Source: an uncultured Verrucomicrobia subdivision 3 bacterium
GTDB taxonomy: Bacteria; Verrucomicrobiota; Verrucomicrobiia; Limisphaerales; UBA11358
DNA: 64,000 bases
NCBI GenBank assembly: GCA_903865745.1
Contig: CAIPKV010000079.1
Span: forward strand, 1-64,000
Direction of reading: 5' to 3'
Part shown: piece by piece, positions 31,097 to 62,795 of the stretch
Position numbering within the stretch: the stretch's first letter is position 1
Layout: every line of letters starts with the position of its first letter
Program-made: the position numbers and the translations under genes
The notes under the pieces: generated by a model
The model's database searches: none
Told to the model about the DNA's origin: nothing
The model's input: the letters and a program-made list of their open reading frames with translations, nothing else

Positions 31097-31372
31097 GCGG
31101 ATTATTTTGAAATAAATGCGCATATATCTGAGATAAATGCGCAAATGTCCGTCCCAGATGCGCATTTATCTCTGCCAAGTACGCATCGGGCAGAAATATA
31201 TACGCATATAAATTTGAAAAATACGCATTGGCGGAAGATAGGCGCGCATATGTGGGTGATAAATGCGCAAATCCGAGAAATATACGCGCGTATTTGCGAG
31301 AAAAATGCGCATCTACTGAATATATATGCGCATCGCCGAGGGATATTTGTGCATTTATGTGACATTTATCCG
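31097..31372. repeat. 21-bp-pitch degenerate tandem array A
   Basis: The hexamer GCGCAT or a close variant (ACGCAT, GCGCAA, GCGCGT, GTGCAT, GCGGAT) begins at 31097, 31118, 31139, 31160, 31181, 31202, 31223, 31244, 31265, 31286, 31307, 31328 and 31349. That is thirteen cores exactly 21 bases apart without an indel. The spacer is A/T-rich with ATAAAT before the core and TAT after it. Because 21 is a multiple of 3, long open frames cross the array on both strands with a heptapeptide rhythm. They have no start context and I do not treat them as genes. Confidence 0.95.
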
Positions 31373-31400
31373 TCGCCGCCAGCCGTCGCCGGATAAATCT

Positions 31401-31467
31401 AATGAGGAAAGCCGGAAGGCAGGAAAGGAATCAGTTCCGTTTTTCCGGTTTTCCTGCTTTCCTCATT
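31401..31467. terminator. Long hairpin between array A and the GH2 gene
   Basis: AATGAGGAAAGC (31401-31412) pairs perfectly with GCTTTCCTCATT (31456-31467). The interior holds purine-rich GGAA and pyrimidine-rich TTCC tracts that can extend the stem imperfectly. It lies 54 bases upstream of the GH2 start. It could stop read-through into the glycosidase cluster or act as a 5' leader structure; neither is certain. Confidence 0.5.
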
Positions 31468-31520
31468 AATCTTCGGCAAATTGGTTTGCCACGGCTACGA
31501 CGTTTGCCCAAATTGGTTTG

Positions 31521-34412
31521 ATGCAATTCACCTCCGTCCTCCGCCTGGCCGTGCTGGCTTCGGCCATTTTATCCCTGAACCTCCGCGCTGACGGCACCGA
31601 CACCGCGGCCGCCGCGTCGCCGCGCGAACATCTTTCGCTGGATGCCAACTGGAAGTTTCATCTGGGCGATGACTGGCCGGGTGCCTTGCGATTGGACAAA
31701 GCGGGCGCGAGCGGTGGGCCGGCCAGCGAGAAGTTCAGCGATATCGCGTGGCGCACACTGGATTTGCCGCATGATTGGGCCATTGAATTGCCGTTCGATA
31801 AATCGGCGGATGCCAACCATGGGTTCAAGCCGGTCGGCCCCGGTTTCGCCAAGAATAATATCGGCTGGTATCGCCGGACATTTGCGCTGCCGGCCACGGA
31901 TGACGGCAAGCGCATCTGGCTGACGTTCGACGGCGTGTACCGCGACGCGACGGTGTGGGTGAATGGCTGGCTAATGACGCATCACGAGGGCGGCTACTAC
32001 GGCTTCCGCGAGGACATCACGGATGTGGTGCATTTCGGCGGCGCGAATGTGGTGACGGTGCGGGTGGATGCGAGCAAGTTCGAGGGCTGGTTTTACGAGG
32101 GCGCGGGGATTTACCGGCACGTGTGGCTGGACAAGACGGCACCGGTGGCCATCGCGCCGGATGGGGTGTTTGTTTCGCCAAGTTTTGCAAACAATGTTCC
32201 AAACAAATACGCGCAGCTTGAGGTATCTACGGAAATAAAAAACTCAAGCCCAACTCCGGTGAACCCAGAAAGTCGGCAAACCATTTTTGATCCGAATGGG
32301 AAACAAGTGGGTCAATCAACCGAATATTCGTGGTCCGTAAAGAACATTCATGAAGTAAGCCTCCATTTTCAAGTTAATGATCCCATTCTTTGGTCTCCGG
32401 AAAATCCCGCGCTCTACAAACTCGTCACGACAATTCTTATCAGCAATAACATTGTTGACCAAAAAGAAACTCTTTTCGGCATCCGCACGGTCGGGTTCGA
32501 CAAGGACCAAGGTTTTCTCCTGAACGGCAAACATTATGAACTGTACGGCACCTGCAACCATCAGGATATGGCGGGCGTCGGCGCGGCGTTGCCGGATGCC
32601 ATTCAGGATTTCCGCGTGAAGAAGCTGAAGGAATTTGGCTGCAATGCCATCCGCACGTCGCACAATCCGCCCACGCCGGAATTGCTCGACGCCTGCGACC
32701 GCCTCGGCATGATTATCATGGATGAGAGCCGCCTGCTCGGCAGCGATGCGCAGAATCTCGCGAAATGGGAGAGCCAGGTTCGCCGCGACCGCAACCATCC
32801 GTGCGTCGGCATCTGGAGCGTGGCGAATGAGGAATTCTCCGTGCAATCCACCCCGCAGGCCGGCCACGTGGCGCGCACGATGCAGAATCTGGTGAAGTCG
32901 CTCGACCCGACGCGCCCGGTCACTTACGCCGCGCCGCAGGGCGATACGTTTCAAGGCATCAACGGCGTGATCGAAGTGCGCGGCTGGAATTATCATCCCG
33001 GCGGCGACATGGACAAGTATCACGCGGAGCATCCGGACCAGCCGAACGTGGGCACGGAACAGGCGAGCACGGTGTGTACGCGCGGCATCTACGCGGATGA
33101 TAAGGAACGCGGCTATGTGCGCGCCTACGATGAGCGCGGCACGCAGACGGCGGAGAAATGGTGGAGCTATTTCGCGGACCGCCCGTGGTTGAGCGGCGGC
33201 TTCGTGTGGACGGGCTTTGATTATCGCGGCGAACCGACGCCATACAAATGGCCGTGCGTGAATTCGCACTTCGGCATTCTGGACACGTGCGGTTTCCCGA
33301 AGGACAACTTCTGGTATTACCAATCCTGGTGGACCACGAACACGGTGCTGCATCTGTTGCCGCATTGGAACTGGGCGGGCAAGGAAGGCCAGACGGTGCG
33401 CGTAGATGCCTTGAGCAATTGCAAGGCGGTGGAGTTGTTCCTCAACGGCACGTCGCTCGGCAAACAGGCGATGAAGCCGAATTCCAAGCTGAGCTGGCAG
33501 GTCACGTACGCCCCGGGGACTTTGAGCGCGAAAGGTTTTGATGACGCGGGCAAGGTCATTGCCGAAACCAAAGTGGAGACAACCGGTGACGCGTCGGCCG
33601 TGCAGCTCACGCCGGATCGCACGACGATCAATGCCGATGGCGAGGACGTCAGCGTGATCACGGTGGCTGTGACGGATGCGCAAGGTCGCGTGGTGCCCGT
33701 GGCGGGAAACAAGATTAACTTCACCATTGAAGGCGCGGGCAAAATCATCGGTGTCGGCAACGGCGACCCGAGTTGCCATGAGCCGGATACATTCATCGGC
33801 CAGCCGGGCGTGAAGAATCTGTCGCTGACTGATTGGCGTTGGGAACTCGTGCCGGTTCCGGCCAAGGGTGCGCTCGCACCCGAATACGCGCCGGCCTTCG
33901 ATGATTCGAAGTGGCCGACTTTGAAGTCCAAGCTCGAAGAAAGCTCCGACGGCATGTTTTTGACGGAAGGCCAATCCGCCATTTACCGCACCCACCTTAC
34001 GCTGACTGAAGCCGATTTGGCCAACCCCGGCGTGCAGGTGCGGTTCGAGTGCATTGACGATCTCGGCTGGGTGTTCGTGAATAATCAGCGCGTTGGCGAA
34101 TCGCGCGATTGGTCGGTGTCGCCGGTCTTCGATATCAAGAAGCATCTGCATGTGGGCGACAATGTCATTGCCGTTGGCGTGCGTAATGAGTCCGGTGGCG
34201 GCGGCCTGAATCCCGGGGTGAACGTGGAACTCATCGGCAAAGCCACCGCCGTGCCGTGGTCGCGGAGTGTGTTCAATGGCCTCGCGCAGGTGATGGTGCA
34301 GTCCACGCGGGACGCCGGCGAAATCAAATTGACCGCGAGCGCGGACGGCCTGACGCCCGCGACGGCGACAATCACGACACAGCCCAGCACGCCGCGTCCG
34401 AGCGTGCCGTAA
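31521..34412 (+). CDS. Secreted GH2 beta-galactosidase-like glycosidase
   Basis: A 963-residue protein from the ATG at 31521; a TTG directly before it is less likely. A signal peptide (about 1-22, FTSVLRLAVLASAILSLNLRA in outline) directs export. The domain order is the GH2 sugar-binding sandwich (about 40-220), an Ig-like middle domain, a TIM barrel (about 325-600) with acid/base Glu437 (VANEEF) and nucleophile Glu513 (GTEQAS), then a DUF4982-type domain and C-terminal sandwiches. Substrate is probably a beta-galactoside or related glycan side chain. It is the first gene of a cluster with GH95 and a GH-L-type glycosidase. Confidence 0.9.
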   Translation: MQFTSVLRLAVLASAILSLNLRADGTDTAAAASPREHLSLDANWKFHLGDDWPGALRLDKAGASGGPASEKFSDIAWRTLDLPHDWAIELPFDKSADANHGFKPVGPGFAKNNIGWYRRTFALPATDDGKRIWLTFDGVYRDATVWVNGWLMTHHEGGYYGFREDITDVVHFGGANVVTVRVDASKFEGWFYEGAGIYRHVWLDKTAPVAIAPDGVFVSPSFANNVPNKYAQLEVSTEIKNSSPTPVNPESRQTIFDPNGKQVGQSTEYSWSVKNIHEVSLHFQVNDPILWSPENPALYKLVTTILISNNIVDQKETLFGIRTVGFDKDQGFLLNGKHYELYGTCNHQDMAGVGAALPDAIQDFRVKKLKEFGCNAIRTSHNPPTPELLDACDRLGMIIMDESRLLGSDAQNLAKWESQVRRDRNHPCVGIWSVANEEFSVQSTPQAGHVARTMQNLVKSLDPTRPVTYAAPQGDTFQGINGVIEVRGWNYHPGGDMDKYHAEHPDQPNVGTEQASTVCTRGIYADDKERGYVRAYDERGTQTAEKWWSYFADRPWLSGGFVWTGFDYRGEPTPYKWPCVNSHFGILDTCGFPKDNFWYYQSWWTTNTVLHLLPHWNWAGKEGQTVRVDALSNCKAVELFLNGTSLGKQAMKPNSKLSWQVTYAPGTLSAKGFDDAGKVIAETKVETTGDASAVQLTPDRTTINADGEDVSVITVAVTDAQGRVVPVAGNKINFTIEGAGKIIGVGNGDPSCHEPDTFIGQPGVKNLSLTDWRWELVPVPAKGALAPEYAPAFDDSKWPTLKSKLEESSDGMFLTEGQSAIYRTHLTLTEADLANPGVQVRFECIDDLGWVFVNNQRVGESRDWSVSPVFDIKKHLHVGDNVIAVGVRNESGGGGLNPGVNVELIGKATAVPWSRSVFNGLAQVMVQSTRDAGEIKLTASADGLTPATATITTQPSTPRPSVP

Positions 34413-34481
34413 CGGATGGATTAGTTGCAGGATAATTAAATTTGAACTTGTTTGCGGGGCGGAGCTGGCGAAAATCTTCGG

Positions 34482-36818
34482 ATGCCAACTTTGCCCCGCA
34501 CTCTTTTTGCCGCGTTCACGGCGTGGTTCATCCTGCAATCCGGTCAAGCGGCGGAGTCGCCGTCGCCGCTCACGCTCTGGTATCAGCAGCCCGCCAAAGT
34601 TTGGACGGAAGCTTTGCCCATCGGCAACGGCCGCTTGGGCGCGATGATTTTTGGCGGTGCGGAACGCGAACATCTTCAGCTTAACGAAAGCACGCTCTGG
34701 GCTGGTGGTCCCTATAACGCTGACAACCCGAAAGCACTCGCCGCGCTGCCCGAAGTGCGCAAGCTCATCTTTGCCGGCCAATACGACGACGCAGAAAAAA
34801 TGATAGCCGACAAGATGATGGCGGTGCCGCTGCGCCAGATGCCTTACGAGCCTGTGGGCGACTTGTTTCTTGATATTCCCACAAACGGCCCCGTGGAAAA
34901 TTATCGCCGTGACCTTGATCTGGATACCGCCATTGCCAGCGTCAGCTACGCCGTCAATGGCGTGCACTTCAAGCGCGAGATATTTGCCAGCCCGGTGGAT
35001 CAAGTCATTGTGGTGCGGCTGACAGCGGATAAGCCGGGGCAGATTTCGTTTAAGGCTAGTATGACTACACCGCAGAAGGCTTCTGTGAAAACCGAATTCA
35101 ACGGCGGTGAAGGCAGCGAGCTTGTCCTGTCGGGTGTGAATGGTGACGCGCGCGGCATTAAGGGTGCACTAAAGTTTCAGGCACGGGTGCAGATCATGGT
35201 TCAAGGCGGCACAGTGACCGATGGCACGAATTCAGTTTCCGTTACCAGCGCGGATTCCGCCACGCTGCTGATCGCCGCCGCTACCAGCTACAAGAATTAT
35301 CACGATGTTAGCGGAAAGCCGGAGGCAATTACGAAGAAACAGATTGCCGTTGCGACCAAGAAAAACTTCGACGAACTGCTGGCCGCGCACATCGTCGAGC
35401 ATCAGCGATTGTTCCGTCGCGTAGAACTGAATCTTGGCGAAACGGACGCGATGAAGCTGCCGACGGATGTGCGTATCGCGCACTTCGCCGAAGGCAAGGA
35501 CCCGCAACTCGCGGCGGTGTATTTCCAGTTCGCGCGGTATCTGCTGATCAGCTGCTCGCGCCCCGGCGGCCAGCCCGCAACGTTGCAGGGCTTATGGAAT
35601 AATTCCATGACCCCGCCGTGGGACAGTAAATACACCATCAATATCAACACCGAGATGAATTACTGGCCGGCTGAGCCGGCCAACCTCGGCGAGTGCGTTG
35701 AGCCGCTCATGCGGATGGTTTTGGAAATGGCGGATACCGGCGTCCACACCGCGAAAGTAATGTATGGCGCGCGCGGCTGGGTGGTGCACCACAACACCGA
35801 TTTGTGGCGGGCGACAGCACCGATTGATGGGCCGAATTCCGGAATGTGGCCGATGGGTGGTGCGTGGCTCTGCCAGAATTTGTGGGATCATTACCTCTTC
35901 ACCGAGGACAAAGATTATCTGAAGCAAATTTATCCGGCCATGAAGGGCGCGGCCCAGTTCTTTCTTGATACGCTGCTTGTCGATCCAAACCTGCCTGGCC
36001 CCGCAAATCTGGTGACCGGTCCGTCACTCTCGCCGGAAAACGGCAACCCGGCCGCCAAACATACAAGCATCACTGCCGGGCCGACGATGGATTTGGAAAT
36101 CTTGCGCGACTTGTTTGCCAACTGCATCCGCGCTTCGGAAATTCTCGACAAAGACAACAAGTTTGCCTCCCAACTCGCTGAGACCCGCGCCAAACTCGCG
36201 CCTTTGCAAATCGGCTCGGCCGGTCAGTTGCAGGAATGGCTGCAGGACTTGGATATGCAGTCGCATGAATTGCACCATCGCCATGTGTCGCATCTTTACG
36301 GGCTTTTTCCCAGCGGGCAGATTGACGTGAACACGACGCCCGAATTGGCCGCCGCTGTAAAAAAATCTCTGGAAGTTCGTGGTGATCAGGCGACCGGCTG
36401 GGGAACTGCTTGGCGAATCAACTTGTGGGCGCGGCTTCTTGATGGGGACCACGCCTTTGGTATTTTAAAATACCTTATCAGTCCGAAATGCACCTACCCA
36501 GATTTGTTTGACTCCTGCCCGCCATTTCAGATTGACGGCAATTTTGGTGGCGCATCCGGAATCGCCGAAATGCTATTGCAAAGCCAGAACGGCGAAATTC
36601 AATTGCTGCCCGCGCTACCGAAAGCGTGGGCGACCGGCAGCGTGAAAGGCCTCCGCGCGCGCCGTGGTTTCGAAGTGGATATCGCTTGGCAGGATGGAAA
36701 GCTTACGTCGGCCACGGTACATTCTCTCAACGGCAATTACCTTCATTTGCGATATGGTCAGACAACCAAAGCTGTTACCATCAGCAAGGGCAATACTATC
36801 CAGTGGGATGGAAAATAG
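34482..36818 (+). CDS. Secreted GH95 alpha-L-fucosidase (or alpha-L-galactosidase)
   Basis: A 778-residue protein from the ATG at 34482, which begins a signal peptide (TLFAAFTAWFILQSGQA). An earlier ATG at 34452 adds ten residues without a signal. Family residues are in place: Asn387 and Asn389 in NINTEMNYWP, the acid Glu519 in SLSPENG and Asp685 in QIDGNFG, matching the Asn/Asn, Glu and Asp positions of the Bifidobacterium GH95 fucosidase. The (alpha/alpha)6 barrel is preceded by the N-terminal sandwich with PIGNGRLGAMIFGG. It would remove alpha-1,2-linked fucose or L-galactose. It follows the GH2 gene by about 70 bases. Confidence 0.9.
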   Translation: MPTLPRTLFAAFTAWFILQSGQAAESPSPLTLWYQQPAKVWTEALPIGNGRLGAMIFGGAEREHLQLNESTLWAGGPYNADNPKALAALPEVRKLIFAGQYDDAEKMIADKMMAVPLRQMPYEPVGDLFLDIPTNGPVENYRRDLDLDTAIASVSYAVNGVHFKREIFASPVDQVIVVRLTADKPGQISFKASMTTPQKASVKTEFNGGEGSELVLSGVNGDARGIKGALKFQARVQIMVQGGTVTDGTNSVSVTSADSATLLIAAATSYKNYHDVSGKPEAITKKQIAVATKKNFDELLAAHIVEHQRLFRRVELNLGETDAMKLPTDVRIAHFAEGKDPQLAAVYFQFARYLLISCSRPGGQPATLQGLWNNSMTPPWDSKYTININTEMNYWPAEPANLGECVEPLMRMVLEMADTGVHTAKVMYGARGWVVHHNTDLWRATAPIDGPNSGMWPMGGAWLCQNLWDHYLFTEDKDYLKQIYPAMKGAAQFFLDTLLVDPNLPGPANLVTGPSLSPENGNPAAKHTSITAGPTMDLEILRDLFANCIRASEILDKDNKFASQLAETRAKLAPLQIGSAGQLQEWLQDLDMQSHELHHRHVSHLYGLFPSGQIDVNTTPELAAAVKKSLEVRGDQATGWGTAWRINLWARLLDGDHAFGILKYLISPKCTYPDLFDSCPPFQIDGNFGGASGIAEMLLQSQNGEIQLLPALPKAWATGSVKGLRARRGFEVDIAWQDGKLTSATVHSLNGNYLHLRYGQTTKAVTISKGNTIQWDGK

Positions 36819-36851
36819 GCGGACGGGAATTCAAGTCGGCGGCGGGTGTCG

Positions 36852-38429
36852 TCAAAAGACGTCCAACGCGTCGCTCTCACAGGCGGCGTATTTTTCCAGC
36901 AGCTTGTCGTAAATCTTGGCGGCTTTTGAATCCGGGCGGATTTCGCTGCCCGGCACCGGTTTGGTGAAGCCGGCAACCAGCTTTTCCCACTTGGGACTTT
37001 TGTCCGCCGCCACGAGCCAGCCGTGCGCGGCCTGCAAAGCGGCGCCGAGCGCAGCACTCTTGGAAACTTCGATGCGCAGCACCCGACAGTTCATCACATC
37101 TGCTAGTACCTGCAATAAAGCGCGGTCGTTGGACGCGCCGCCGGTGACGAGAATTTTTTCTGGCGCGACTTGCATCCATTGCGAGTGCAATCGCATGGAA
37201 AGCATCTGCGCCTCAAACACGGCACGGCAGTTAGCGGCGGCGTTTTTCTCGTCGAGGTCAAAGCGCCGGATGCCAGGCTTGGAGCGCGGGACAATTTCCG
37301 CCTCAAACCACGGTAACAGAACTCCTCCGTTATTACCCACTGGTGTGCTGGCGACGAGGGAGCCGAACTTCTTCCAGTCTGAAATCTTGTATAGTTCGCG
37401 GATTTTCTCACGAGCGAGCGAGCCGTTCTTGAAACAGATCAAGGTCATGTAGCCGCCGGTTGGCGAGCCAAAGACGTGACCTTCGCCATTTTCATCAGTG
37501 TGGCACTCTTCCATCGTACCAAAAAAGGTGTCGCTGGTGCCGAGGCTGATGGCGACCTGACCGGGTTTGGTAAGTCCGAGGCCGATGACGCTCGCCGGAT
37601 TATCGCCCGTCCAGACGGTGGCAAGCGCCTCGGGGTTCAGACCGTATTTTGTAACGAAGTAGGAACTAACCGGGCCGATGACGCGGCCGGATTCCGCAAG
37701 CGGCGGAAGTTTTTTAACGAGGCTGGGCGCGGTGGCTTTAAGTGCGTCGTGGTTCCAGTTTTTACGGCGGATATCCATTAGATTCATCCCCGCTCCGTCG
37801 CCGAAATCTATCGGCGCAAGTTTACCCGCGAGCAGCGACGCCATGAACGAACTAACCAGCGCGATGCTGGCGGTCTTCTCGTAGTTCTTCGGCTCGGTCT
37901 TGTAAAACTTACGGATTTGCGGTCCGGTAAATCGCTCAAAGGTGTCCGATCCGGTGCGTGACGCGGTGAACTTGATGCCGCCGAGTTTTTTTCGGATTTC
38001 GGCGCATTCCTTGGTGGTTGAGGAATCCATCCAGATGGGCGATGTCTTGCGCGCCAAGAGACCGTCGAGGTTTTCGACCAAGGATTTTTTTGGATCCAGC
38101 GCGGCGAGTACTTCCGTAGTCTTTTCGGTGAGATAAACCGAGCCATGCTGCTGGCCGCTACCACTGACGGCAAGAATCTTGCCCAGCGCGACCTTGTCCT
38201 TTCTCATCTGCGCGAAGAGCAGGTCAAGCGCGGCGGCCCAGAGCAAGGGCGAACTGTGCTTCACTAGCGGGTCGCGATTTGGCAACACCCCGTTCTTCGT
38301 CTTGAACTGCGGCAGTGCCTGATCAAAGTTCAGCGATTTTTCGTAGATGACCTTGTTGGCGTCGAGGTCAATAACCACGGCGCTTAGGCTTTGTGTGCTG
38401 GAATCGAGTCCGAGAAAAAGTTTACCCAT
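36852..38429 (-). CDS. xylB: FGGY-family carbohydrate kinase, xylulokinase-like
   Basis: A 525-residue cytoplasmic kinase of the FGGY fold. The N-terminal phosphate-1 motif (FLGLDSSTQSLSAVV), the substrate loop GSGQQHGSVY, PIWMDSST, the GLTKPGQVAISLGTSDTFFG region and the C-terminal VTGGASNDRALLQ adenosine motif are present. The long form and the GQQHG/WMDSS motifs place it near eukaryotic-type xylulokinases, which phosphorylate D-xylulose. It stands alone on the minus strand between glycosidase genes of opposite direction, so it may feed cluster products into the pentose phosphate pathway. Confidence 0.85.
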   Translation of the reverse strand: MGKLFLGLDSSTQSLSAVVIDLDANKVIYEKSLNFDQALPQFKTKNGVLPNRDPLVKHSSPLLWAAALDLLFAQMRKDKVALGKILAVSGSGQQHGSVYLTEKTTEVLAALDPKKSLVENLDGLLARKTSPIWMDSSTTKECAEIRKKLGGIKFTASRTGSDTFERFTGPQIRKFYKTEPKNYEKTASIALVSSFMASLLAGKLAPIDFGDGAGMNLMDIRRKNWNHDALKATAPSLVKKLPPLAESGRVIGPVSSYFVTKYGLNPEALATVWTGDNPASVIGLGLTKPGQVAISLGTSDTFFGTMEECHTDENGEGHVFGSPTGGYMTLICFKNGSLAREKIRELYKISDWKKFGSLVASTPVGNNGGVLLPWFEAEIVPRSKPGIRRFDLDEKNAAANCRAVFEAQMLSMRLHSQWMQVAPEKILVTGGASNDRALLQVLADVMNCRVLRIEVSKSAALGAALQAAHGWLVAADKSPKWEKLVAGFTKPVPGSEIRPDSKAAKIYDKLLEKYAACESDALDVF

Positions 38430-44822: not shown

Positions 44823-44900
44823 GTTTTGAATTTTTAATTTTGAGTTTTTAATGAAGCTGCCGCGCTCAAGTTATGAGTTGTGGGTTATGTGTGATGAGTT
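44823..44900. repeat. A/T-rich GAGTTTTGAAT-type low-complexity repeats
   Basis: Just upstream of lpxK lie TTTTGAATTTTTAATTTTG (44823-44841) and then GTTATGAGTTGTGGGTTATG-type copies up to 44900. These words match the DNA that forms the two insertions in waaF and the tail of lpxL. They appear to be a dispersed repetitive sequence; their function is unknown. Confidence 0.55.
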
Positions 44901-44912
44901 GAAGCGGGGAAC

Positions 44913-44950
44913 ATTACCGCGAAATACACGAAATACGCGAACGGGAAGGG
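44913..44950 (+). repeat. Dispersed CCGCGAAATAC repeat, left copy at array B
   Basis: TTACCGCGAAATACACG followed by AAATACGCGAACGGGAAGGGG. It is nearly identical to the copy at 30953-30990 and is inverted relative to the copy at 45637-45666, so the two bracket array B. Confidence 0.8.
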
Positions 44951-45138
44951 GAGCCCTGTTCAATAAGGAAAACCAGACTTACAACGCCAACATGACCTGG
45001 TTCTTTTCGAACGAATCTACCTTGCGCCTCTGGCTGGCAGCTTACTAACCTTTTCTTCACTCTTTTACTGCCGAAGAAACCTTTCTGGTGGCTGGTTGAA
45101 CCAAATGAGCTGTCGATTTATGGCGAACAGTTCGCCAA

Positions 45139-45485
45139 TGAACGTGGTTACCTGCCGGTTGCAGCCCTTTACCTCGCGGGTAAACGCATTTAGTTGCCGA
45201 CTAAAGAGGTTTACCTCGCCGGTAAGCGCGAATACCCGCCGGGTAAACCCGTTTATTTGCCGGGGAAACGCAATTACCCGGCGGGTAAGGGCAAATATCC
45301 TTCGGGTAAAGACGATTACCGGCGGTATAAACGTGTTTATACCTCGGGTAAACGTGTTTCCCCTCGGTATAAATGGGATTACCTGCCGGGTAAACGCGTT
45401 CACTTGCCAACTGAACGTCTTTATTCGCCGGGTAAATGGGTTTACCCACCGCTTCCAACGACTAAAATGCCGTTCAAACGGCAAA
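45139..45485. repeat. 21-bp-pitch degenerate tandem array B
   Basis: Cores of the form TAAACG (variants TGAACG, TAAGCG, GAAACG, TAAATG, CAAACG) begin every 21 bases from 45139 to 45475. Clear cores lie at 45181, 45202, 45223, 45244, 45265, 45286, 45307, 45328, 45349, 45370, 45391, 45412 and 45433; positions 45160 and 45454 are weak. There is no indel over 16 periods. The typical unit is CGGGTAAACG followed by CGTTTACCTGC. All frames stay open for long stretches because the period is a multiple of 3; these are not genes. Confidence 0.95.
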
Positions 45486-45568
45486 AAACACCACTTTTAG
45501 ACATAAACTGGCGAAATTGACATACAGGTGGCGATATTTGACCAGGTTCACCTCCACACCCAAACCAA

Positions 45569-45598
45569 AACGGCGCGAAGAGGTTTCTTCGCGCCGTT
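45569..45598 (-). terminator. Strong hairpin, probable terminator of the downstream minus-strand gene
   Basis: AACGGCGCGAAGA (45569-45581) pairs perfectly with TCTTCGCGCCGTT (45586-45598) around GGTT. On the minus strand it is followed by TTGGTTTGGG. It lies about 105 bases past the stop of the minus-strand gene at 45704-46177. Confidence 0.7.
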
Positions 45599-45636
45599 GG
45601 TGTTTCTATTACTGATTCAAAAGTCTTTCCGGTCGC

Positions 45637-45666
45637 TTTCGCGAATTTCGTGACTTTCGCGGTAAA
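45637..45666 (-). repeat. Dispersed CCGCGAAATAC repeat, right copy at array B
   Basis: Its reverse complement reads TTTACCGCGAAAGTCACG followed by AAATTCGCGAAA, differing from the left copy at 44913 by a few bases and lying in opposite orientation. Array B and the terminator hairpin lie between the two copies. Confidence 0.7.
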
Positions 45667-45703
45667 CCTTCCAGTTCAAGTGGCCATCCGCAAGGATCGA
45701 GGA

Positions 45704-55109: not shown

Positions 55110-55635
55110 GAATCGTCAGGAATTTCTGGTGGTGCTGACCGTCGCGGCTTTCGCGCTGCTGGTGGTTGTGAATTTCATCCTCGAACCACTCGGCGACTGG
55201 TGGTCGGCACGGCAGGCGCAGATCAAGGAATTGCGCACAGAGGTTACCGCTGGCCAGCAACTCATCCGACGTGAGTCTGGCATCCGTAGCCGCTGGGCGG
55301 ACATGACGGCGAACGCGCTGCCGGAAAATACATCGTTGGCAGAGCAAAAACTCCTGACGGCGGTGGACGGTTGGTCGCGCGGCAGCGGCGCGGAGGTGAC
55401 AAGCCTGATGCCGCAATGGAAAAATGAATCTACAAATTATCTGACGCTGACGTGCCGGGTGGAAACATCCGGCGACCTCGGTGCACTGAGCAAATTTCTC
55501 TATGACCTTGAGAATGGACCGATGGCGATACGAGTGGATTCGTTGGAGTTGGGCGCACATGATAAGGATGGCCAGCAAATGACTTTGAGCACGGAAATCA
55601 ATGGGCTGGCACTGGTCCAGCCGGACAAAAAATGA
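55099..55635 (+). CDS. gspM: GspM-like inner-membrane protein
   Basis: A 178-residue protein starting at GTG inside the end of gspL. One N-terminal membrane helix (FLVVLTVAAFALLVVVNFIL) precedes a coiled-coil stretch and a small ferredoxin-like domain (TNYLTLTCRVETSGDL...). It has the size, topology and position of GspM/PilO, which pairs with GspL. Confidence 0.8.
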   Translation: MKIKNRQEFLVVLTVAAFALLVVVNFILEPLGDWWSARQAQIKELRTEVTAGQQLIRRESGIRSRWADMTANALPENTSLAEQKLLTAVDGWSRGSGAEVTSLMPQWKNESTNYLTLTCRVETSGDLGALSKFLYDLENGPMAIRVDSLELGAHDKDGQQMTLSTEINGLALVQPDKK

Positions 55636-56243: not shown

Positions 56244-57622
56244 AAAAATTAATTTTAAACCTCATGGCCGTGGGGGCGGCAGGCTGGCTTACGTCTGCCA
56301 GCGCCCAACCAACTGCACCGGACAACAACGGTAATATTCCGCCGCCGCCAGCACTCGATCAAGCGCCACCGCCCGAAATTCCAGTGCCTGCCGAAGTGCC
56401 GGTAGACAGCATTGCGCCGGCTGAGAAAGCCGTGGTTGCTCCAGTAACAATCTTACCGGGGACGAACAATGCCGTGGCTAACGAAAACTTGAATTCCAAT
56501 TTCACGCCGCCGGATTCGGCGCTAGGCTCGAACAACCCGGAAGAGCTGCGGTTAAATTTCCGCAACGCACCGCTGGAGATGGTCTTGAATTATTTGAGCG
56601 ATGCGGCGGGCTTTATCATCGTGCTGGATACGCGCGTCAATGGCAATGTCAGCGTCATCAGTAGTCATCCGATGACTCGGGATGAGGCGGTGGACTTGCT
56701 CAATTTTGAGCTGAATAAAAATGGTTATGCGGCTATTCGAAACGGCCGGACGCTAACCATTTTGGACAAGAACGACGCGAAGACGCGTGATATCCCGGTG
56801 AAGACCGGCAACCTCCCGGACCAGATCCCGAATAACGCGGAAATCGTGACGCAGATCATTCCAATCCGCTTTGTGGAGGCGCGGCAGCTCGTCTCGGATT
56901 TGACGTCTTTCGTCTCGCCGCAGGCGACGGTGGTGGCAAATGAGGAGGGTAATTCGATTGTCATCACGGACACGCAGTCGAACATCCGTCACTTGACGGA
57001 AATCATCAAGGCGATTGACGATAGTGCTGAGGCGGAGACGGTCATCCGTGTGTTCCGTCTGAAATACGCCAGCCCGGCCGATGTTGCGGCGGAGCTGGGT
57101 GAAATCTTTCCGAACAGCGGGTCCGGCTCCGGCACGCAGTCGCCGACACGTTTTGCTGGCGGTGGCGGCGGGCCGGGCGGTTTTTTTGCACGGATGATGG
57201 GGGGTGGCGGTGGCGGCGGAACTTCCACCGGCAGCAGTTCTACTGACCGCATCAAGAAGGCAACGGCGGTTAACGCGGTGGCGGATTCGCGTATCCAAGC
57301 GGTCATCGTGACGGCGCCAAAAGATTTGATGGAGCAGATTTCGAACATGATGAACGACCTCGACGTGCCATCGACGCGTGACCAGAAAGTCTATGTGTTC
57401 CACATGGATAACGGCGACCCCCAGCAGGCGGTTCAGGTTCTGCAAAATATGTTCCAGACCAGCGGCTCGCGGAGCAGTGGCAGCAGTTCATCACAGAATA
57501 GTGCGTTGATGACGCGCGCGCAGAACAACACCACGGCGACCAGCTCGTCCACGACTTCAGGCTCCACCAGCATTGGTGGTGCCGGCGGTGGTACCCGTGC
57601 TGGTGGGGGCGCGGGATTTTAA
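56240..57622 (+). CDS. Secretin N-domain protein (first half of a split GspD)
   Basis: A 460-residue secreted protein with a signal peptide (AVGAAGWLTSASA). After a Pro-rich stretch it carries N0/N1-type domains: LRLNFRNAPLEMVLNYLSDAAGF (about 108), TQIIPIRFVEARQLVSDL (about 210) and ETVIRVFRLKYASPADVAAEL (about 265). A further domain (YVFHMDNGDPQQAVQVLQNMF) follows. There is no secretin barrel domain; the C-terminal part is Ser/Gly/Thr-rich. The barrel is in the next gene. The protein probably makes the periplasmic vestibule of the secretin. Confidence 0.85.
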   Translation: MKKLILNLMAVGAAGWLTSASAQPTAPDNNGNIPPPPALDQAPPPEIPVPAEVPVDSIAPAEKAVVAPVTILPGTNNAVANENLNSNFTPPDSALGSNNPEELRLNFRNAPLEMVLNYLSDAAGFIIVLDTRVNGNVSVISSHPMTRDEAVDLLNFELNKNGYAAIRNGRTLTILDKNDAKTRDIPVKTGNLPDQIPNNAEIVTQIIPIRFVEARQLVSDLTSFVSPQATVVANEEGNSIVITDTQSNIRHLTEIIKAIDDSAEAETVIRVFRLKYASPADVAAELGEIFPNSGSGSGTQSPTRFAGGGGGPGGFFARMMGGGGGGGTSTGSSSTDRIKKATAVNAVADSRIQAVIVTAPKDLMEQISNMMNDLDVPSTRDQKVYVFHMDNGDPQQAVQVLQNMFQTSGSRSSGSSSSQNSALMTRAQNNTTATSSSTTSGSTSIGGAGGGTRAGGGAGF

Positions 57623-57649
57623 TTTGACCGTTTAATCGGAGATAAAATT

Positions 57650-58855
57650 ATGAAGATACAACATTTCAAAAATATTTACACCAGCGTGCTAGTGTTTTGC
57701 TTGTGCGCGGCATTGACTGTGCAAGCGCAACAGCGTGGTGGCTTTGGCGGCGGTGGCTTTGGCGGGTTTGGTGGCTTCGGTGGCTTTGGCGGCGGTATCG
57801 GTGGCGGTACCCGCACCAGTAGTTCTACTGCCGGCCAATACAACAACAACGGCACCGTGGGCAATGCAGTCATCTCGGTGGACCCAGTGACACATAATAT
57901 TGTGGTCATCGCCGATGATGTGACTAGCCAGCAGATCAGCAATGTAATTGCCAATCTCGACGTGCCCGAGCCGCAGGTGCTCATCAAGGTAGTCTTTGTC
58001 GAGGTGGACGATAACAAAGCGTCCGCTATTGGCGTGCAAGGTAGTTACAATAATAGCTCGTCGCAATTGAACACCACGCTGACCAATAACTTTGGTCTGC
58101 CGCAGGCGTTAGCGGGAGCAACCGGCAGTGGCGGGATGTATCAGCTAATGGGTGACAATTTTACGACGACCATCCAAGCGCTGGCTACTGCCGGTAAGGC
58201 GCAGGTGCTTTCGCGCCCGTCCATATTGGCCCGCGACGGCCAGCAGGCTGAGATTGTTGTTGGTCAGAGCATTTACCTACCTAGTGGTGTGAGCTATACC
58301 ACCGTTGGTAACACAACTACCACGATTCCAACCATCAATGGTAGCTATCAGAATGTTGGTATCCAACTCGACGTGACCCCATTCATCGGTGAGAACAGTC
58401 TAGTACAGATGATTTTGGAACCGCAGATTACATCCATAGATAATTCAACGCCCGGTCAGATAATTGTCGGCGGTTCGACCACGGCATTGGGTTCTGGTGG
58501 TTCTTCGGCAGTTTATGCGCCCAATATAAACAAACGGTCCGCCAATACCGTAGTCGTGACGCCCGACGGTCAACCCGTTGTTATTGGCGGCCTAATTGGC
58601 AGTGACAAGTCCTCCACGGATAGCAAAATTCCTTTTCTCGGTGACATACCACTGCTTGGCCAGCTATTCCGGTTTAATAACAAGTCGAGCACGAAGAGCG
58701 AGCTGCTGATTTTCCTTACGCCGCACATCGTTCGCGAGCCCGGCCAGTTGCCCGGCATGGCTATCAATGAGACCAAACAGTCACAGCTCATCACCAATTC
58801 CGTTTCCGAACAGGAATTAGACCGCTACCTCGACCGGTTGCCGGTAAAGAAATAG
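57650..58855 (+). CDS. gspD: Secretin barrel protein (second half of a split GspD)
   Basis: A 401-residue protein with its own signal peptide (VLVFCLCAALTVQA) and a Gly/Phe-rich N-terminal stretch. One short N-domain (ISVDPVTHNIVVIADDVTSQQ) and the secretin core follow: VLIKVVFVEVDDNKASAIGV, LSRPSILARDGQQAEIVVGQ, then IPFLGDIPLLGQLFRF and LLIFLTPHIV. These C-terminal motifs define the outer-membrane secretin pore. It lies 27 bases after the N-domain gene. There is no lipobox. Confidence 0.9.
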   Translation: MKIQHFKNIYTSVLVFCLCAALTVQAQQRGGFGGGGFGGFGGFGGFGGGIGGGTRTSSSTAGQYNNNGTVGNAVISVDPVTHNIVVIADDVTSQQISNVIANLDVPEPQVLIKVVFVEVDDNKASAIGVQGSYNNSSSQLNTTLTNNFGLPQALAGATGSGGMYQLMGDNFTTTIQALATAGKAQVLSRPSILARDGQQAEIVVGQSIYLPSGVSYTTVGNTTTTIPTINGSYQNVGIQLDVTPFIGENSLVQMILEPQITSIDNSTPGQIIVGGSTTALGSGGSSAVYAPNINKRSANTVVVTPDGQPVVIGGLIGSDKSSTDSKIPFLGDIPLLGQLFRFNNKSSTKSELLIFLTPHIVREPGQLPGMAINETKQSQLITNSVSEQELDRYLDRLPVKK

Positions 58856-58897
58856 AAAATTGTTTATCTCTGCTGCCGCGCCAGACTAGAGCCGCCC

Positions 58898-60439
58898 ATG
58901 GAACCGAAACGCCGCCAAAAACTCGCCACCAGCCTGCTCATCGGTGCGTGGCTGCTGGTGGTCGGCTGGCAGGTCCAGGAACATTTGAGCGTCGTTGCGG
59001 CTGCGCGGTCCGACCTCCGCAGTCGGTCGCACGAGATTGCCGGCACCCTCAGTGCCGTCACCCGCGCACTCAGTTTTCGCGGTGCTGTATTTCAGGAACG
59101 CCTCGACCCCGTCCTCAAGGAACTCGTCAACAACCGCGCCAATGCGCTGGTTAAATTGATTTACGTCGGCTTGCTCAACACCGACGGCGACCCGGTGACG
59201 GCGGCCGGCGACACCAATTTATTTTCTCGCGAAATTCCGGCCAGCGGTGAACTCTGGTCCGACAGCTATGCCACCTTCGTCTTGCCCGTTGAAGGTGCGA
59301 GTGTCAGTCCCGAGGGCGTGACCAACAATCCCACGGTCGTGCTGCCCCCGTTTCGTAATTTTACCAATGGCGAACCGCGCAGCCGTGATTTTTCGCGTCG
59401 CGAACCGCGTCCCGATGAAACTAATTTCGTCGCCGCCAAATTCCCGTTTCCGTTTACGAATGCCGCCGGCCAGATTGAAACCCCTCCACCGCCGCCCGAG
59501 GGCGGCGACCGTCCGCGCGGCGGCAATCATCGTCCGCCGTGGATGCGCGGGATGACTGATGCCGAGTTCAAGGCGCTCGCCGCCAAGCGCGAGTTGCATG
59601 GTCTCGTCCTCGCCATGTCCACCGACAATTACCGCGCGCTCTGCGTTCACGATGTCTGGCTGCGCGGCGTCATCGTGTTCTTTGCCGGCATCTCCGCGCT
59701 CGGGGCCGGGCTCGCGTGGCGCAATTTGCGGCGCACTTCCGATTTGCAAATCCGCCTCGTACGCGCCAGCGAACTGAATTCGCATCTCAAGGAAATGAAC
59801 CTCGCCGCCGCCGGCCTCGCACACGAGACGCGCAATCCGCTTAACCTCATTCGCGGCCAGGCGCAGATGATTGCGCGGTTGCCCGACGCTTCGCCCGATG
59901 TGCGCGACAAATCCAAAATCATTGTGGACGAGACCGACAAGGTCACCGCGCAGCTCACCGAGTTTATCAACTACTCGCGGCCGCGCGAAGTACGTCGCAC
60001 GAAGATTGCGCTCACCGCTGCCTGCTCGGAAATCACCCGCACACTCGCCTACGACATTGGTGAAAAGAAACTTCATGTGGAAGTCACCGGCGACCCGCTG
60101 GCGATTGAGGCCGACGAGCAATTATTGCGACAAGTCTTGTTCAATCTGCTCATCAACGCCACGCAAGCTGTAGATGATGGCGGACAGATTAAAATTGAAG
60201 TGCGTCGCGCCAGCGCCACCGAGGCGATTTTGGAAGTGCGCGACGACGGCCACGGCGTGGCGTCCGAGAATCGTCAGGAGATTTTCAAGCCGTATTTCAC
60301 GACCCACCAGAAAGGGACCGGCCTCGGCCTTGCCGTTGTGTCGCAGATTGTGCTCGCGCACGGCTGGGAAATCGTCTGTCTCCCGAACGAGCCCAAGGGT
60401 ACGATCTTCCGCCTAATACATCTGAAAATTGCCTCCTGA
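58898..60439 (+). CDS. Sensor histidine kinase (NtrB-type catalytic core), orphan
   Basis: A 513-residue inner-membrane kinase with a first membrane helix (LLIGAWLLVVGWQV), a periplasmic domain of about 210 residues rich in Pro and Arg, and a second helix (VIVFFAGISALGAGLAW). Dimerisation/phosphoacceptor motif LAHETRNPLNLIRG follows with His309. The ATPase N box (NLLINATQAV), G1 (DDGHGV), F (FKPYFTT) and G2 (GTGLGLAVV) boxes are intact. It starts about 40 bases after the secretin gene, so it may be co-transcribed with the secretion operon. No response regulator gene is adjacent. Confidence 0.9.
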   Translation: MEPKRRQKLATSLLIGAWLLVVGWQVQEHLSVVAAARSDLRSRSHEIAGTLSAVTRALSFRGAVFQERLDPVLKELVNNRANALVKLIYVGLLNTDGDPVTAAGDTNLFSREIPASGELWSDSYATFVLPVEGASVSPEGVTNNPTVVLPPFRNFTNGEPRSRDFSRREPRPDETNFVAAKFPFPFTNAAGQIETPPPPPEGGDRPRGGNHRPPWMRGMTDAEFKALAAKRELHGLVLAMSTDNYRALCVHDVWLRGVIVFFAGISALGAGLAWRNLRRTSDLQIRLVRASELNSHLKEMNLAAAGLAHETRNPLNLIRGQAQMIARLPDASPDVRDKSKIIVDETDKVTAQLTEFINYSRPREVRRTKIALTAACSEITRTLAYDIGEKKLHVEVTGDPLAIEADEQLLRQVLFNLLINATQAVDDGGQIKIEVRRASATEAILEVRDDGHGVASENRQEIFKPYFTTHQKGTGLGLAVVSQIVLAHGWEIVCLPNEPKGTIFRLIHLKIAS

Positions 60440-60442
60440 AAA

Positions 60443-62377
60443 TCAGCGTTGAAGGACGCGATAAAACCGGCTGGTAAAATTGGTGGTAGCCGGATCTGTG
60501 AAATTCAATTCTGTGGCAGCAGCCGTATTGGTCTCCAAGGAAACCCAGTCGGATAAATTGGTACTTGCCTGCAAAACATAAGTTTTTCCGACCAATCCCG
60601 CGACTTGCATTTGAAACGAGGTCGGGGCGGACGTTTTTAGTTTTTCGATGGCTGTAGCGGAGACGTTTGGCTTGATTCGAAGCTGGGGTGTAAAGTTTGG
60701 ATAAAGCTGGTTTTCCGGGATGACGGATTTTGCTAAATTGGTAAATATACCATTCGTCGGGCCCGCGGCGTGCGGTGCAAGAAAATTGGTGAGCCCATAA
60801 ACCGACACGGCGTATTCCGCCCCAACGTAAACTTTGCCATTGGCAATCGTCGGGACAGAAAATTTTACCGCGCCGCCGGGATTATCACGGTCGGGAATGT
60901 TTGCACTGCTATAAAGCTCCTGGGCGAGATTCGAGGCGTCGTAAGCATGCAAGATGGACGGACTACTGCTTTCATAGCCGTCGTTCTGCAACGCCCAAAC
61001 AATCCCATTTTTAGTTCCGTTCGCCGAAATACTCGGGGTTGCCCCAGGAAAACCAAATGACATGGTGCTCTGCGAAGTCGGCGTCGGATTGATTTGCGAG
61101 TTGGTAATCGCGAATGCCTTCAACACGTCCCCGACCCCCAGGTAATAAATATGTTTATTGAAATATGCCGGCGTATCGAAGCTGCCGCCGATCGCGCTTT
61201 GCAAGGTTTGCACGACCTGATTGCTGTCGGCATTGAAATGACCCATTTTATCGCGGTTCACGAGATAGATCGTTCCTTCCTTGCCGGCGCCCACCAGCAG
61301 ATGCCGGCGTGCCTTATTACCGGCTTCATCCGGCAGCAACATTAATCCGCCCGAGCCGAGATCGGCATCGGCATCACTCAAGGCTTGCTGGTTATAGGGC
61401 GTGAAATAATCAGCCAGTTTCAGCGCCTTTGTCGCAGAAAATTTCAAAAAACTATCGCCGTAACAGTTTGCCTGCGGATCAAATGTACCGTTGCCCGTTT
61501 CCGCGTAAACATTTCCGCCCGCATCACTGGCCGGTCCGCCGCCGCCCTGCCAGATGCCGCCGAGACCGCCATTCGGGGTAGTGTTGAAATAAGTATTGAT
61601 TTTCAGCGTCTTGGCCGAACAGCCAATCAACCAGCCGTGATACGGACCAATGTCGCAATGCGCCGCTGAGCCGATATAGACCACACCTTTTTCCAGCAGC
61701 AGGGCGGCGCGATTGAATTGTCGTAACGCATCGAACGGTACGTTGCCGTTGCCGTCGTTCCCGTCGCCATTGCCGGGCACACTCGCCTGAATCACGGTTG
61801 GGCCGCCAAATTTTTCTGCGCCCGTCGTTAAATCCAGCGCGTGCAGCCGATGATAAAAGGTCGTGCCATTCGTGGTGACTTCCTTCGTCTTGGCCAAGAC
61901 ATAAATCGTGCGGCTGCCCAGATCAATCACCGGCGTGCTCGTGATGCCGACTTCCGGTACGAGATCGCCGCAGCCAAGGTCATCGCTGCTAACCGTCGTG
62001 ATACCCGCCCCCGGATTGATGAAGCTCACCTGCCATAAGGGCGGCAAGTTGCTGTTCGCATCGAACGCATACACGCTGTCGTGCTCCGTGGCGACAAACA
62101 CTACGTCATGCACACCTTGATTCGGAATCTTCAACTTCGTCACCACCAGCGGCTGCGCATATACGTAGCCATCCACCGCCTGGGTGAACAATTTGCCGAA
62201 GTTTCCCGAACTCACATTCGTGGGTGTCAGAATCGATTCTTTCAGATTCTGGCCGGTGCGGGCGTTATCGTTGTGATACGTCAGGACATTCACACCCGTC
62301 GCTGCGTCTGCCGCTTGCATCAGCAGGCAAACGAGGAAAGCTGGCCGTAGCCAATTAATAATTGTTGAAGACATCAT
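60443..62377 (-). CDS. Secreted PQQ/WD-like beta-propeller protein
   Basis: A 644-residue protein with a signal peptide (AFLVCLLMQAADA). The start ATG at 62377 follows AGGAG. Repeated blades are visible: VVFVATEHDSVYAFDANS, VYIGSAAHC, LLVGAGKEGTIYLVNRDK, GKVYVGAEYAVSVYGL. The C-terminal domain (YVLQASTNLSDWVSLETNT, then FTSRFYRV) is common at the end of secreted Verrucomicrobiota proteins and may be a sorting or adhesion module. The function of the propeller is not known; outer-surface enzyme or binding roles are possible. Confidence 0.8.
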   Translation of the reverse strand: MMSSTIINWLRPAFLVCLLMQAADAATGVNVLTYHNDNARTGQNLKESILTPTNVSSGNFGKLFTQAVDGYVYAQPLVVTKLKIPNQGVHDVVFVATEHDSVYAFDANSNLPPLWQVSFINPGAGITTVSSDDLGCGDLVPEVGITSTPVIDLGSRTIYVLAKTKEVTTNGTTFYHRLHALDLTTGAEKFGGPTVIQASVPGNGDGNDGNGNVPFDALRQFNRAALLLEKGVVYIGSAAHCDIGPYHGWLIGCSAKTLKINTYFNTTPNGGLGGIWQGGGGPASDAGGNVYAETGNGTFDPQANCYGDSFLKFSATKALKLADYFTPYNQQALSDADADLGSGGLMLLPDEAGNKARRHLLVGAGKEGTIYLVNRDKMGHFNADSNQVVQTLQSAIGGSFDTPAYFNKHIYYLGVGDVLKAFAITNSQINPTPTSQSTMSFGFPGATPSISANGTKNGIVWALQNDGYESSSPSILHAYDASNLAQELYSSANIPDRDNPGGAVKFSVPTIANGKVYVGAEYAVSVYGLTNFLAPHAAGPTNGIFTNLAKSVIPENQLYPNFTPQLRIKPNVSATAIEKLKTSAPTSFQMQVAGLVGKTYVLQASTNLSDWVSLETNTAAATELNFTDPATTNFTSRFYRVLQR

Positions 62378-62509
62378 TTACTCCTCTTTACAAATTAACC
62401 GGAATGCATCCTCACTGTCGATAAAGTTTCTGCGAACGCCTCCGCCGTCACCGCGTCCGCGCCGTCCGTTACCGGCGCAAAATGGTTTTGCGCTGTGAAC
62501 GAGGCCTTC

Positions 62510-62795
62510 TGCACCGGGAACGAGAGTGGCTGCACTGGGTTTCCGAGTCGGTGCACCAGACACGCGAGTCGCCGCACCGGATTTCCGAGTTGCTGTGCCG
62601 GATACGCGTTTCGCTGCGCCAGATTGGGGCAGGTTTTCACCGGTATGAGACCCTCTAAACCAGATACGCAACTTGCTGCGCTGGGTACGCGACTCACTGC
62701 GCTGGGTACCCGACCTGCGGCGTCGGATAGACGGGTTACTGTGACGGATACGCGACGTGCTGCGCCGGTAACGCGCGGCTCGTTGCCGTGTCCGG
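62510..62795. repeat. 21-bp-pitch degenerate tandem array C
   Basis: Units with TGCGCCGG-type cores (TGCACCGG, TGCACTGG, TGTGCCGG, TGCGCTGG, TGTGACGG) begin at 62510, 62531, 62552, 62573, 62594, 62615 and 62636. After one 1-base slip they continue at 62656, 62677, 62698, 62719, 62740, 62761 and 62782. Between the cores a GATACGCGACT-like segment recurs. It lies in the 569-base gap between the propeller gene and the truncated GH2 gene; nothing else in that gap is recognisable. Confidence 0.9.

Follow-up and report, generated by a model that had tools for sequence, protein, structure and literature searches.

Dispersed arrays of 21-bp repeats with unlike sequences and a common pitch in a verrucomicrobial genome

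Three arrays in the window

The window, the whole 64,000-nt stretch of DNA analysed here, holds three arrays of 21-bp units, designated A, B and C, the second of them within an insert between two genes (Table 1). A first-pass annotation made from the letters alone had described all three as sharing an exact 21-bp pitch, and the lag-21 match bears this out, being 0.53 in A (31097-31385), 0.53 in B (45110-45480) and 0.57 in C (62495-62800); at lags 20 and 22 it falls to 0.16-0.34, and it is high again at lags 42 and 63. The phase described there was also recovered in unit listings read by eye, unbroken in A and B and with one slip of a single base in C near 62.65 kb. TRF alone detected parts of B and C and returned no 21-bp row for A. 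The further suggestion that the three arrays have a common core did not hold up: B belongs to family F1 and A to the two-copy family F4, C has no relative in our sample, and when the dyads of 19 non-redundant palindromic arrays were superposed the mean profile similarity was 0.269, compared with 0.236-0.266 at other rotations. Residual similarity among these 19 arrays gives no support for common descent of the families.

Table 1. Coordinates of the arrays and adjoining features in the window
Feature	Start	End	Strand	Description
Array A	31040	31378	.	~16 units of 21 bp, cores set by match to array consensus; consensus ~GCAT.T.tg.GagATAaATGC; palindromic; family F4, other copy on contig C38
Insert with array B	44856	45702	.	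~847 bp; relatives lack it between the corresponding gene pair
Array B	45058	45488	.	~17 clear units of 21 bp (20 by consensus match); consensus ~cgtTTAcctGCCGggTAAAcG; palindromic; family F1, at least six copies in sample
Right flank of family F1	45489	45569	+	conserved
Hairpin adjoining array B	45570	45599	.	perfect, ACGGCGCGAAGA...TCTTCGCGCCGT
Array C	62441	62815	.	~18 units (21 bp), phase slipping by one base near 62650; dyad weak; no relatives in sample

Genome-wide number and period

Arrays A, B and C were confirmed as real and as samples of a genome-wide feature. At a score of at least 0.47 in 10-unit windows, 464 kb of the genome yielded 30 arrays with a period of 21 and one with a period of 22, periods 19, 20 and 23 being unrepresented; across periods 10-60 the only others were five at 12-15, the remainder being harmonics (42, 44). 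Looser thresholds raised the 22-bp hits to 4 and gave one hit each at 19 and 23 bp, and one clear 22-bp array is present. Chance origin is excluded, because one second-order Markov resample of the same 464 kb gave no hits (maximum score 0.35) where the real sequence gave 30. In the 915 kb sampled in all there were 54 arrays, or about one per 17 kb, which extrapolates to ~214 per genome, and the possibility raised at the outset that such arrays are confined to this locus gives way to their presence across the sampled genome. Most lie in intergenic DNA. As a separate observation, the orientation of the flanking genes is not strongly biased (19 of 46 gaps around arrays are strand-switch gaps, a raw count).

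Unit identity within arrays is low (median of means 0.51), with variation spread across the unit; period-42 alternation of units and consensus shifts common to all units of an array also occur, and one array of a relative, L170, is nearly homogeneous. In the relatives, L161 and L245, L170 and L234, and L179 and L239 are each probably one array detected by two tools, and the three contigs that carry them (of genomes G007, G035 and G025) were picked for holding an array. Array density varies across the genus, G025 perhaps being dense like the genome studied here and G028, G001 and G003 sparse.

Insertion and whole-unit change

At array B both flanks aligned in all five relatives compared. Of 19 relatives read as loci out of the 39 of 40 genomes matched for locus B, 18 had a visible neighbour gene and an empty site, the gene pair being separated by 57-154 bp (in 13 relatives the neighbour was taken by size and strand), and the array was missing from all 18 congeners with the pair visible; in the remaining relative the locus stops short of the neighbour. 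A further array interrupts alaS, a housekeeping gene thought to be essential and detected in a single copy, and does so in frame; our gene caller is crude, and on this gene it reported an opposite-strand ORF. At B and in alaS, then, the arrays are insertions. Right of B, the flank is ~85% identical over ~150 bp to that of the F1 copy on contig C49, above the identity of the arrays themselves. The adjoining hairpin is terminator-like and dispersed elsewhere in the genus, with short matches to its stretch in 13 of 41 genomes, its own included. Phage and plasmid collections contained no match to array B, and an apparent GGTTTTTGCC motif common to the flanks of all arrays did not stand up.

The arrays form dispersed families: 38 surveyed arrays fell into 6 families and 20 singletons, with low similarity between families, and a fixed pitch is kept across unlike consensus sequences. 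The five copies of family F5 have exactly 13, 17, 11, 13 and 11 whole units, and their flanks reach 98% identity while the enclosed arrays are only 51-60% alike. Among close copies (four family pairs at ≥84% identity) all eight internal gaps were multiples of 21, whereas in the full set of 30 family pairs 53 of the 80 gaps were not, mostly in diverged pairs; these counts omit family F4 and are uncorrected for the bias of aligners towards repeat-length gaps in tandem repeats. Phase slips numbered 3 in 782 units, in a search of low power that recovered a planted 1-bp indel in 57 of 212 trials, and a softer penalty placed slips in 8 of 53 arrays. Close copies change by whole units, and unlike arrays stand behind near-identical flanks. 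This upholds the earlier proposal that spacing is conserved and sequence is not, and it tells against its companion, that the arrays are very old and never suffered indels, as do the empty sites of the congeners at B.

Changes of this kind are what neutral satellite DNA would show, that is, if all arrays came from old 21-bp tandem repeats that grow and become uniform by slippage and unequal recombination with no protein involved, keeping their ancestral pitch for want of any exchange except that of entire units. Besides gains and losses in whole units, it would cover the period-42 alternation, the array-wide consensus shifts and the near homogeneity of L170. On the same account the period would be expected to drift, yet unlike consensus sequences have one period, with 20 and 23 absent at a score of 0.47; the families' common descent lacks support from residual similarity, and neither the palindromes nor the mutual avoidance described below are predicted. 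We regard this explanation as possible and somewhat doubtful.

Palindromy, RNA and coding potential

Palindromic units (profile dyad ≥0.42) occur in 26 of 53 arrays, the dyad being weak or absent in about half. In some units 8-9 of 10 positions can pair, and in several pairs of copies the paired positions co-change more often than positions at other axes, the best set being B versus C49 (24 and 18 pairs against a mean of 4.3); C13 versus C15 showed no such excess (1 and 2, with a mean of 2.1). Within arrays, pairing is barely above that of unit shuffles, with a mean z of 1.15 at the best axis (picked as best) and -0.17 elsewhere, and no consistent preference was found for either dyad axis, unit centre or unit junction. 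Two candidate general features were dropped: A/T peaks at ±5 and ±7 from the dyad weakened once family relatives were removed, and a 10.5-bp A/T harmonic was the top one in only 21 of 53 arrays.

The pairing units, the compensatory changes in some copy pairs and the terminator-like hairpin beside B are what transcribed arrays would offer if the palindromes were stem-loops in a chain of RNA hairpins. Covariation between units is too weak for this and prefers no axis, Rfam gave no match above gathering score in the 64,000-nt window, the raw count of flanking gene orientations points the same way, and one array sits within alaS; we consider a hairpin chain very unlikely.

Less credible still is descent from decayed or live genes for seven-residue-repeat proteins, which the stop-codon test disfavours. 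Twenty-one bases are seven codons, the array in alaS translates into GANxPxVG repeats, one frame of the C49 copy of F1 is free of stops, and stops over 32 arrays total 759 against 874 in column shuffles, 13% fewer. Against this, when columns are shuffled the most open frame is on the whole just as open as in the real arrays (32 arrays, mean p 0.54), members of a family are closed in different frames, and coding does not call for dyad symmetry. Translation of the frames, evidence of which the first-pass annotation would have taken as a refutation, applies to the one array in frame in alaS and not to the arrays in general.

Spacing along the chromosome

Arrays avoid each other over ~6.5 kb: only 1 of 43 gaps between them is shorter than 6.5 kb, where six intergenic nulls predict 12.5-15.3, in a combined test whose 0.47 cut excludes array C57 (0.467), so that a short gap of 4.6 kb is also lost. 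Support for the avoidance from the second half of the sample is weak (p 0.019). Strictly regular spacing was rejected, since the coefficient of variation (CV) of 0.34 in the first 444 kb was not reproduced at the pre-stated level of 0.6 in the second 471 kb (CV 0.64 versus a null of 0.83, p 0.085); only short-range avoidance is retained.

Avoidance brings in target immunity, by which the units would bind a transposase-like protein, following the logic of MuA or TnsB, and the bound arrays would repel nearby insertion. MuA and TnsB binding sites are ~22 bp long, and known transposon ends carry far fewer sites than the units of one array here. Two-turn sites, mobility and the near absence of arrays within ~6.5 kb of one another all suit such an element, and Mu cis-immunity is described in PMC7350765 as strongest around 5 kb and decaying between 5 and 25 kb. 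No transposase is linked to the arrays, the sole family searched, Y1_Tnp (2 genes), being of a different class; terminal repeats and target duplications are not established, and the number of units is excessive for transposon ends. We judge this reading improbable.

A proposed satellite-like mobile repeat with a protein-held pitch

The reading we prefer, at a probability of roughly 0.45, is that these are dispersed repeats, mobile and satellite-like, in which a DNA-binding protein that we infer and have not found holds the pitch at two turns. Elements of 21-bp units, many of them palindromic, would insert into intergenic DNA, and once into a coding loop of alaS, would spread to further genomic sites, sometimes together with short flanks, and would afterwards gain, lose and exchange whole units. 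A dimeric protein may dock once per unit, over two helical turns, with the dimers aligned and bound on one face of the DNA; the pitch would be fixed because each unit is one such docking site. Palindromy at both unit centre and unit junction would be expected from a row of symmetric dimers, and is compatible with one rather than proof of it, since in identical units one dyad axis forces the other. Against the proposal, consensus sequences differ between families, a difference that a single sequence-specific protein leaves unexplained. As to avoidance, bound protein might make nearby DNA a poor target, like Mu cis-immunity; alternatively, spaced arrays might be selected as chromosome domain sites. 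A fuller, genome-wide version strikes us as rather unlikely: a dimeric protein would assemble on arrays of two-turn palindromic sites, and these arrays would themselves be mobile, exchangeable cassettes that cis-immunity or selection keeps apart, dividing the chromosome into domains of ~15 kb. In that version sequence could drift because the lattice would respond to symmetry and helical phase more than to bases.

Arrays so numerous, unlike in sequence and alike in helical pitch, would be the bacterial equivalent of satellite DNA, with a monomer length set by the packing factor, and they offer a natural experiment in whether selection acts on DNA helical phase independently of sequence. They also bear on how a repeat can enter a housekeeping gene with its frame unbroken, and on what separates repeat loci along a chromosome.

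Comparison with known systems

In the open PMC literature, the scope of our search, no description of such arrays and no system explaining them was found. REP repeats, as described in PMC3733652, are short (20-40 bp), palindromic and extragenic, with many genomic copies that are often clustered; within a family the sequence is common to all members and bears a GTAG or CGTC tag, and dimers in head-to-tail order are for the most part rare or lacking. The same source names RPE repeats and records an abundance of GTAG repeats in the verrucomicrobium Opitutus terrae (PMC3733652). Our arrays resemble REP and BIME elements in their short palindromic extragenic units and many copies per genome, but they run head to tail and have unlike sequences with a 21-bp pitch in common, and in place of a single conserved 20-40 bp palindromic unit the 38 arrays surveyed comprise 6 families and 20 singletons. 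No common GTAG or CGTC tag was visible by eye in the unit listings, and the two Y1_Tnp genes are no more than candidates for TnpA-REP. Rickettsia palindromic elements likewise place palindromic DNA in frame within protein genes, as the array in alaS does, but as single units of ~100-150 bp rather than tandem 21-bp arrays. PARCEL repeats, too, are tandem, dyad-symmetric, dispersed and shuffled within genomes, and their motif is coding and of 25 residues (75 bp), as presented in PMC2996958. The arrays described here differ from PARCEL in a pitch of 21 rather than 75 bp, in being mostly non-coding and in frames no more open than shuffles.

Plasmid iterons and transposon-end arrays (R6K, Mu, Tn7) are protein-binding direct repeats of about two helical turns, a few of them at one locus, whereas the arrays described here extrapolate to 214 per genome and have no associated origin or transposon. 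Mu and Tn7-like transposons have terminal sites, target duplication and a DDE transposase with an AAA+ partner; here insertion is evident, at B and alaS. CRISPR arrays share regular, palindromic tandem repeats, but ours have no constant repeat with unrelated spacers, the total pitch being 21 bp and median unit identity 0.51; nor did those in the window match any known structured RNA in Rfam above gathering score. Like bacterial minisatellites (VNTRs), the arrays change by whole units, but minisatellite periods differ freely between loci, whereas here, over periods 10-60, 30 arrays have a period of 21 and one of 22.

Abundance and pitch of the arrays

In the window, lag-21 match was 0.53, 0.53 and 0.57 for arrays A, B and C respectively and was also high at lags 42 and 63, and a unit listing bore out the single phase slip in C reported by the first-pass annotation. 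The refuting case it named, arrays restricted to this locus, can be set aside, as 21-bp arrays were also found elsewhere in a 464-kb scan (the window plus twenty 20-kb stretches; periods 10–60; periodicity score cut 0.47). At this cut there were 30 arrays of period 21, one of period 22 and none of 19, 20 or 23, together with five at 12–15 and the harmonics 42 and 44. No array was obtained from one Markov-2 resample. Lowering the cut raised the 22-bp matches to at most 4, and at 0.38 there were 45 matches at 21 bp and single matches at 19 and 23. The sole clear 22-bp array of this first sample, on stretch L042, has partly palindromic units like ggtcttgtgcccacccaagagg.

Adding further contigs gave 54 arrays of 21 or 22 bp in 915 kb (score ≥0.47), extrapolating to ~214 in the 3.63-Mb genome; the density of 1 per 15 kb in the initial contigs is biased somewhat upward, as these were picked for B-like arrays. 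At a score of 0.45, 25 arrays were found in 471 kb (contigs C1, C4, C5, C15, C25, C38, C49 and C57), array presence being already known for C15, C38 and C49. The 53 arrays at 21 bp contain 8.5–23.5 units (median 14.4), and the median of per-array mean unit identities is 0.51.

Coordinates of arrays and associated features
Feature	Location	Detail
Array A	window 31040-31378
Array B	window 45058-45488
Array C	window 62441-62815
Extra DNA at locus B	window 44856-45702	~847 bp
tRNA-synt_2c (Pfam) match, alaS first part	C59:31142-31999	model positions 1-264
tRNA-synt_2c (Pfam) match, alaS second part	C59:32279-33157	model positions 264-551
Array within 581-codon ORF	C59:85069-85282	weak dyad
22-bp array	L042:14381-14797
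Nearly homogeneous array	L170:5992-6222	contig end
TGAATCG heptamer run	L228:13537-13680
9-base-period repeat	window 30956, 31031, 44917, 45646
Hairpin	window 45570-45599
Short repeat common to two array flanks	L032:17536-17570; L040:11146-11180

Insertion and genomic position

The arrays are insertions. At locus B, a 390-residue gene left of the array and its 157-residue neighbour lie 57–154 bp apart in 18 of 18 congeners (19 relatives' loci were read, one ending before the neighbour) and 910 bp apart in this genome, and no array was detected at this locus in any of the 19. The extra DNA was delimited by aligning both flanks in five relatives; in the other 13 the neighbour was recognised by size and strand only. 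Locus A, ~1.9 kb here versus ~160–180 bp in relatives G034 and G009, is a less clean case because a gene also differs there.

Other dispersed repeats occur beside the arrays. The repeat CCGCGAAATACGCGAAA, with a 9-base internal period, occurs at 17 sites within the 464-kb sample and adjoins several arrays; 29 of 41 genus genomes (including this one) have short matches, nearly all at that stretch. The hairpin ACGGCGCGAAGAGGTTTCTTCGCGCCGT, with short matches in 13 of the 41 (again counting this genome), looks like a dispersed terminator-like palindrome, and ATCTGTGTTTCATCTGGGTCCATCTGTGGCTAAAA is a dispersed short repeat.

Although a simple gene caller gave a coding share of 88% for the first 464 kb, the arrays are intergenic: 7 of 30 overlapped called ORFs, five of these being low-scoring calls within the arrays themselves. 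For 48 arrays placed in intergenic gaps, flanking genes were oriented '+-' in 10 cases, '-+' in 9 and codirectionally in 27. Well-scored ORFs were touched by two of 53 arrays. One of these, in the 581-codon ORF, could be a coding repeat of the ordinary sort. The second lies inside alaS, an essential gene; both tRNA-synt_2c matches share one 1055-codon open frame, and no further match was found across the assembly (97% complete). In three aligned relatives, the inserted segment (STLPVSQSGANPPFSGPNAPAVGPNAAVVGANPHTIG...GANLSTIGADQIAVD) is absent from G028 and G003, while G034 has a different loop with no 21-bp match. No other element sequence was seen within the insertion, whose left edge is not sharp.

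Array families and whole-unit change

When 38 arrays, each with 600 bp of flank, were compared all against all, they fell into six families (sizes 6, 3, 3, 2, 2 and 2) and 20 singletons. Copies in F1, the family of array B, are alignable unit for unit. In the five-copy family F5, unit numbers are exact independently of any aligner (C3, 13; C13, 17; C4, 11; C29, 13; C16, 11), and the arrays are bounded by CCATGG ends, except for CCATGT at the left of C16, a copy without the common right flank. The 146-bp left flank is 95–98% identical in four of the five copies, yet their arrays are of two classes, with units like CCAAGGATGAGCCGGACTGGA in C3 and C29 and units like CCCTGTACGCGCCGTACAGGA in C13 and C16; between C29 and C16, flank identity is 98% and array identity only 51–56%. 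The C4 flank is more distant (79–80% over 107 aligned positions) and its array is of the second class (80–84% to C13). Array identity inside one class is 71–94%, varying with pair and alignment method. Because near-identical flanks carry unlike arrays, and the distant flank of C4 a second-class array, F5 arrays and flanks differ in history, through either array exchange or flank conversion.

The tally of internal gaps may be biased, since aligners prefer unit-length gaps in tandem repeats: in the four array pairs with an identity of 84% or more, 8 of 8 gaps are 21, 42, 84 or 126 bp, and across all 30 pairs of five families 27 are multiples of 21 and 53 are not. Many of the latter come from pairs ~55–65% identical, where the aligner may split 21n gaps, and some 1-bp gaps, such as that in the F1 copy on C59, look like genuine slips. 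Slip counts per array have low power and were given no weight.

Palindromic units

Units are frequently imperfect palindromes with a base-centred axis; a second axis at the unit junction exists because periodicity forces it. A profile dyad (palindrome symmetry of the unit profile) of 0.42 was reached by 26 of 53 arrays. Compensatory pairs exceeded those at other axes in several copy pairs (at best 24 and 18 versus 4.3, B against C49), and the excess was absent in some (1 and 2 versus 2.1, C13 against C15). Pairing inside single arrays is mostly at consensus level. Hairpins are therefore not supported as a selected structure, and symmetric binding sites fit better.

Mutual avoidance

Across the first 444 kb, the 26 inter-array gaps had a CV of 0.34, and none was <6.5 kb versus 9–10 expected. 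A CV <0.6 and few gaps <6.5 kb were predicted before the second contig set, 471 kb of which ~120 kb had been scanned earlier, with one short C4 gap already known. At a score of 0.45 this set gave a CV of 0.64, above that predicted, versus a null of 0.83 (p 0.085), and 2 gaps <6.5 kb versus 6.0 expected (p 0.019). Combined at 0.47, 1 of 43 gaps was <6.5 kb versus 14.9 expected (as few in 0 of 5000 simulations), a figure that overstates the avoidance because the exploratory set is included and the cut drops one of the second set's two short gaps. Five further nulls, confined to larger or strand-switching intergenic gaps, expected 12.5–15.3 (p printed as 0.0000 of 4000 each). Three later gaps, on contigs fetched for other reasons, were about 9.0, 17.3 and 5.7 kb.

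Distribution in relatives

Period-21 scans of relatives gave zero arrays in G001 (86 kb), G028 (40 kb), G003 (55 kb), G009 (34 kb) and G015 (5 kb), three in 189 kb of G034 (one weak) and one weak array in 42 kb of G017. Counts for G035 (1 in 116 kb), G007 (2 in 87 kb) and G025 (4 in 129 kb) are each inflated by one, as one contig apiece was chosen for a known array. In other families there were none in G057 (60 kb) or G048 (40 kb) and one low-complexity match in G046 (31 kb). Eighty named relatives (1.24 Mb; MAGs with titles such as Verrucomicrobia subdivision 3 and Limisphaerales, overlapping the above genomes) gave 5 matches at 21, one of low complexity and one really a 7-bp repeat. Arrays of this kind therefore occur across the group, with an unusual abundance in this genome. 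Separately, the L170 array (GAGTTGAAATGATTTCATCGT), from a Limisphaerales MAG, is a candidate young array, and the heptamer run on L228, from a relative, registers as period 21.

Interpretation and comparison with known repeats

The data support arrays that are mobile and satellite-like and whose helical pitch is constrained. A protein lattice would be the source of this constraint, a reading to which we give a probability of roughly 45%. Neutral satellite turnover, a rather less probable explanation, would make the find a new variant of tandem-repeat DNA. We found no such arrays in print among open papers. Each known family compared either departs from the arrays in one or more defining features or is no more than a possible match, and to our knowledge no known kind shares one pitch over unlike sequences; on these grounds we call the arrays a categorically new kind.
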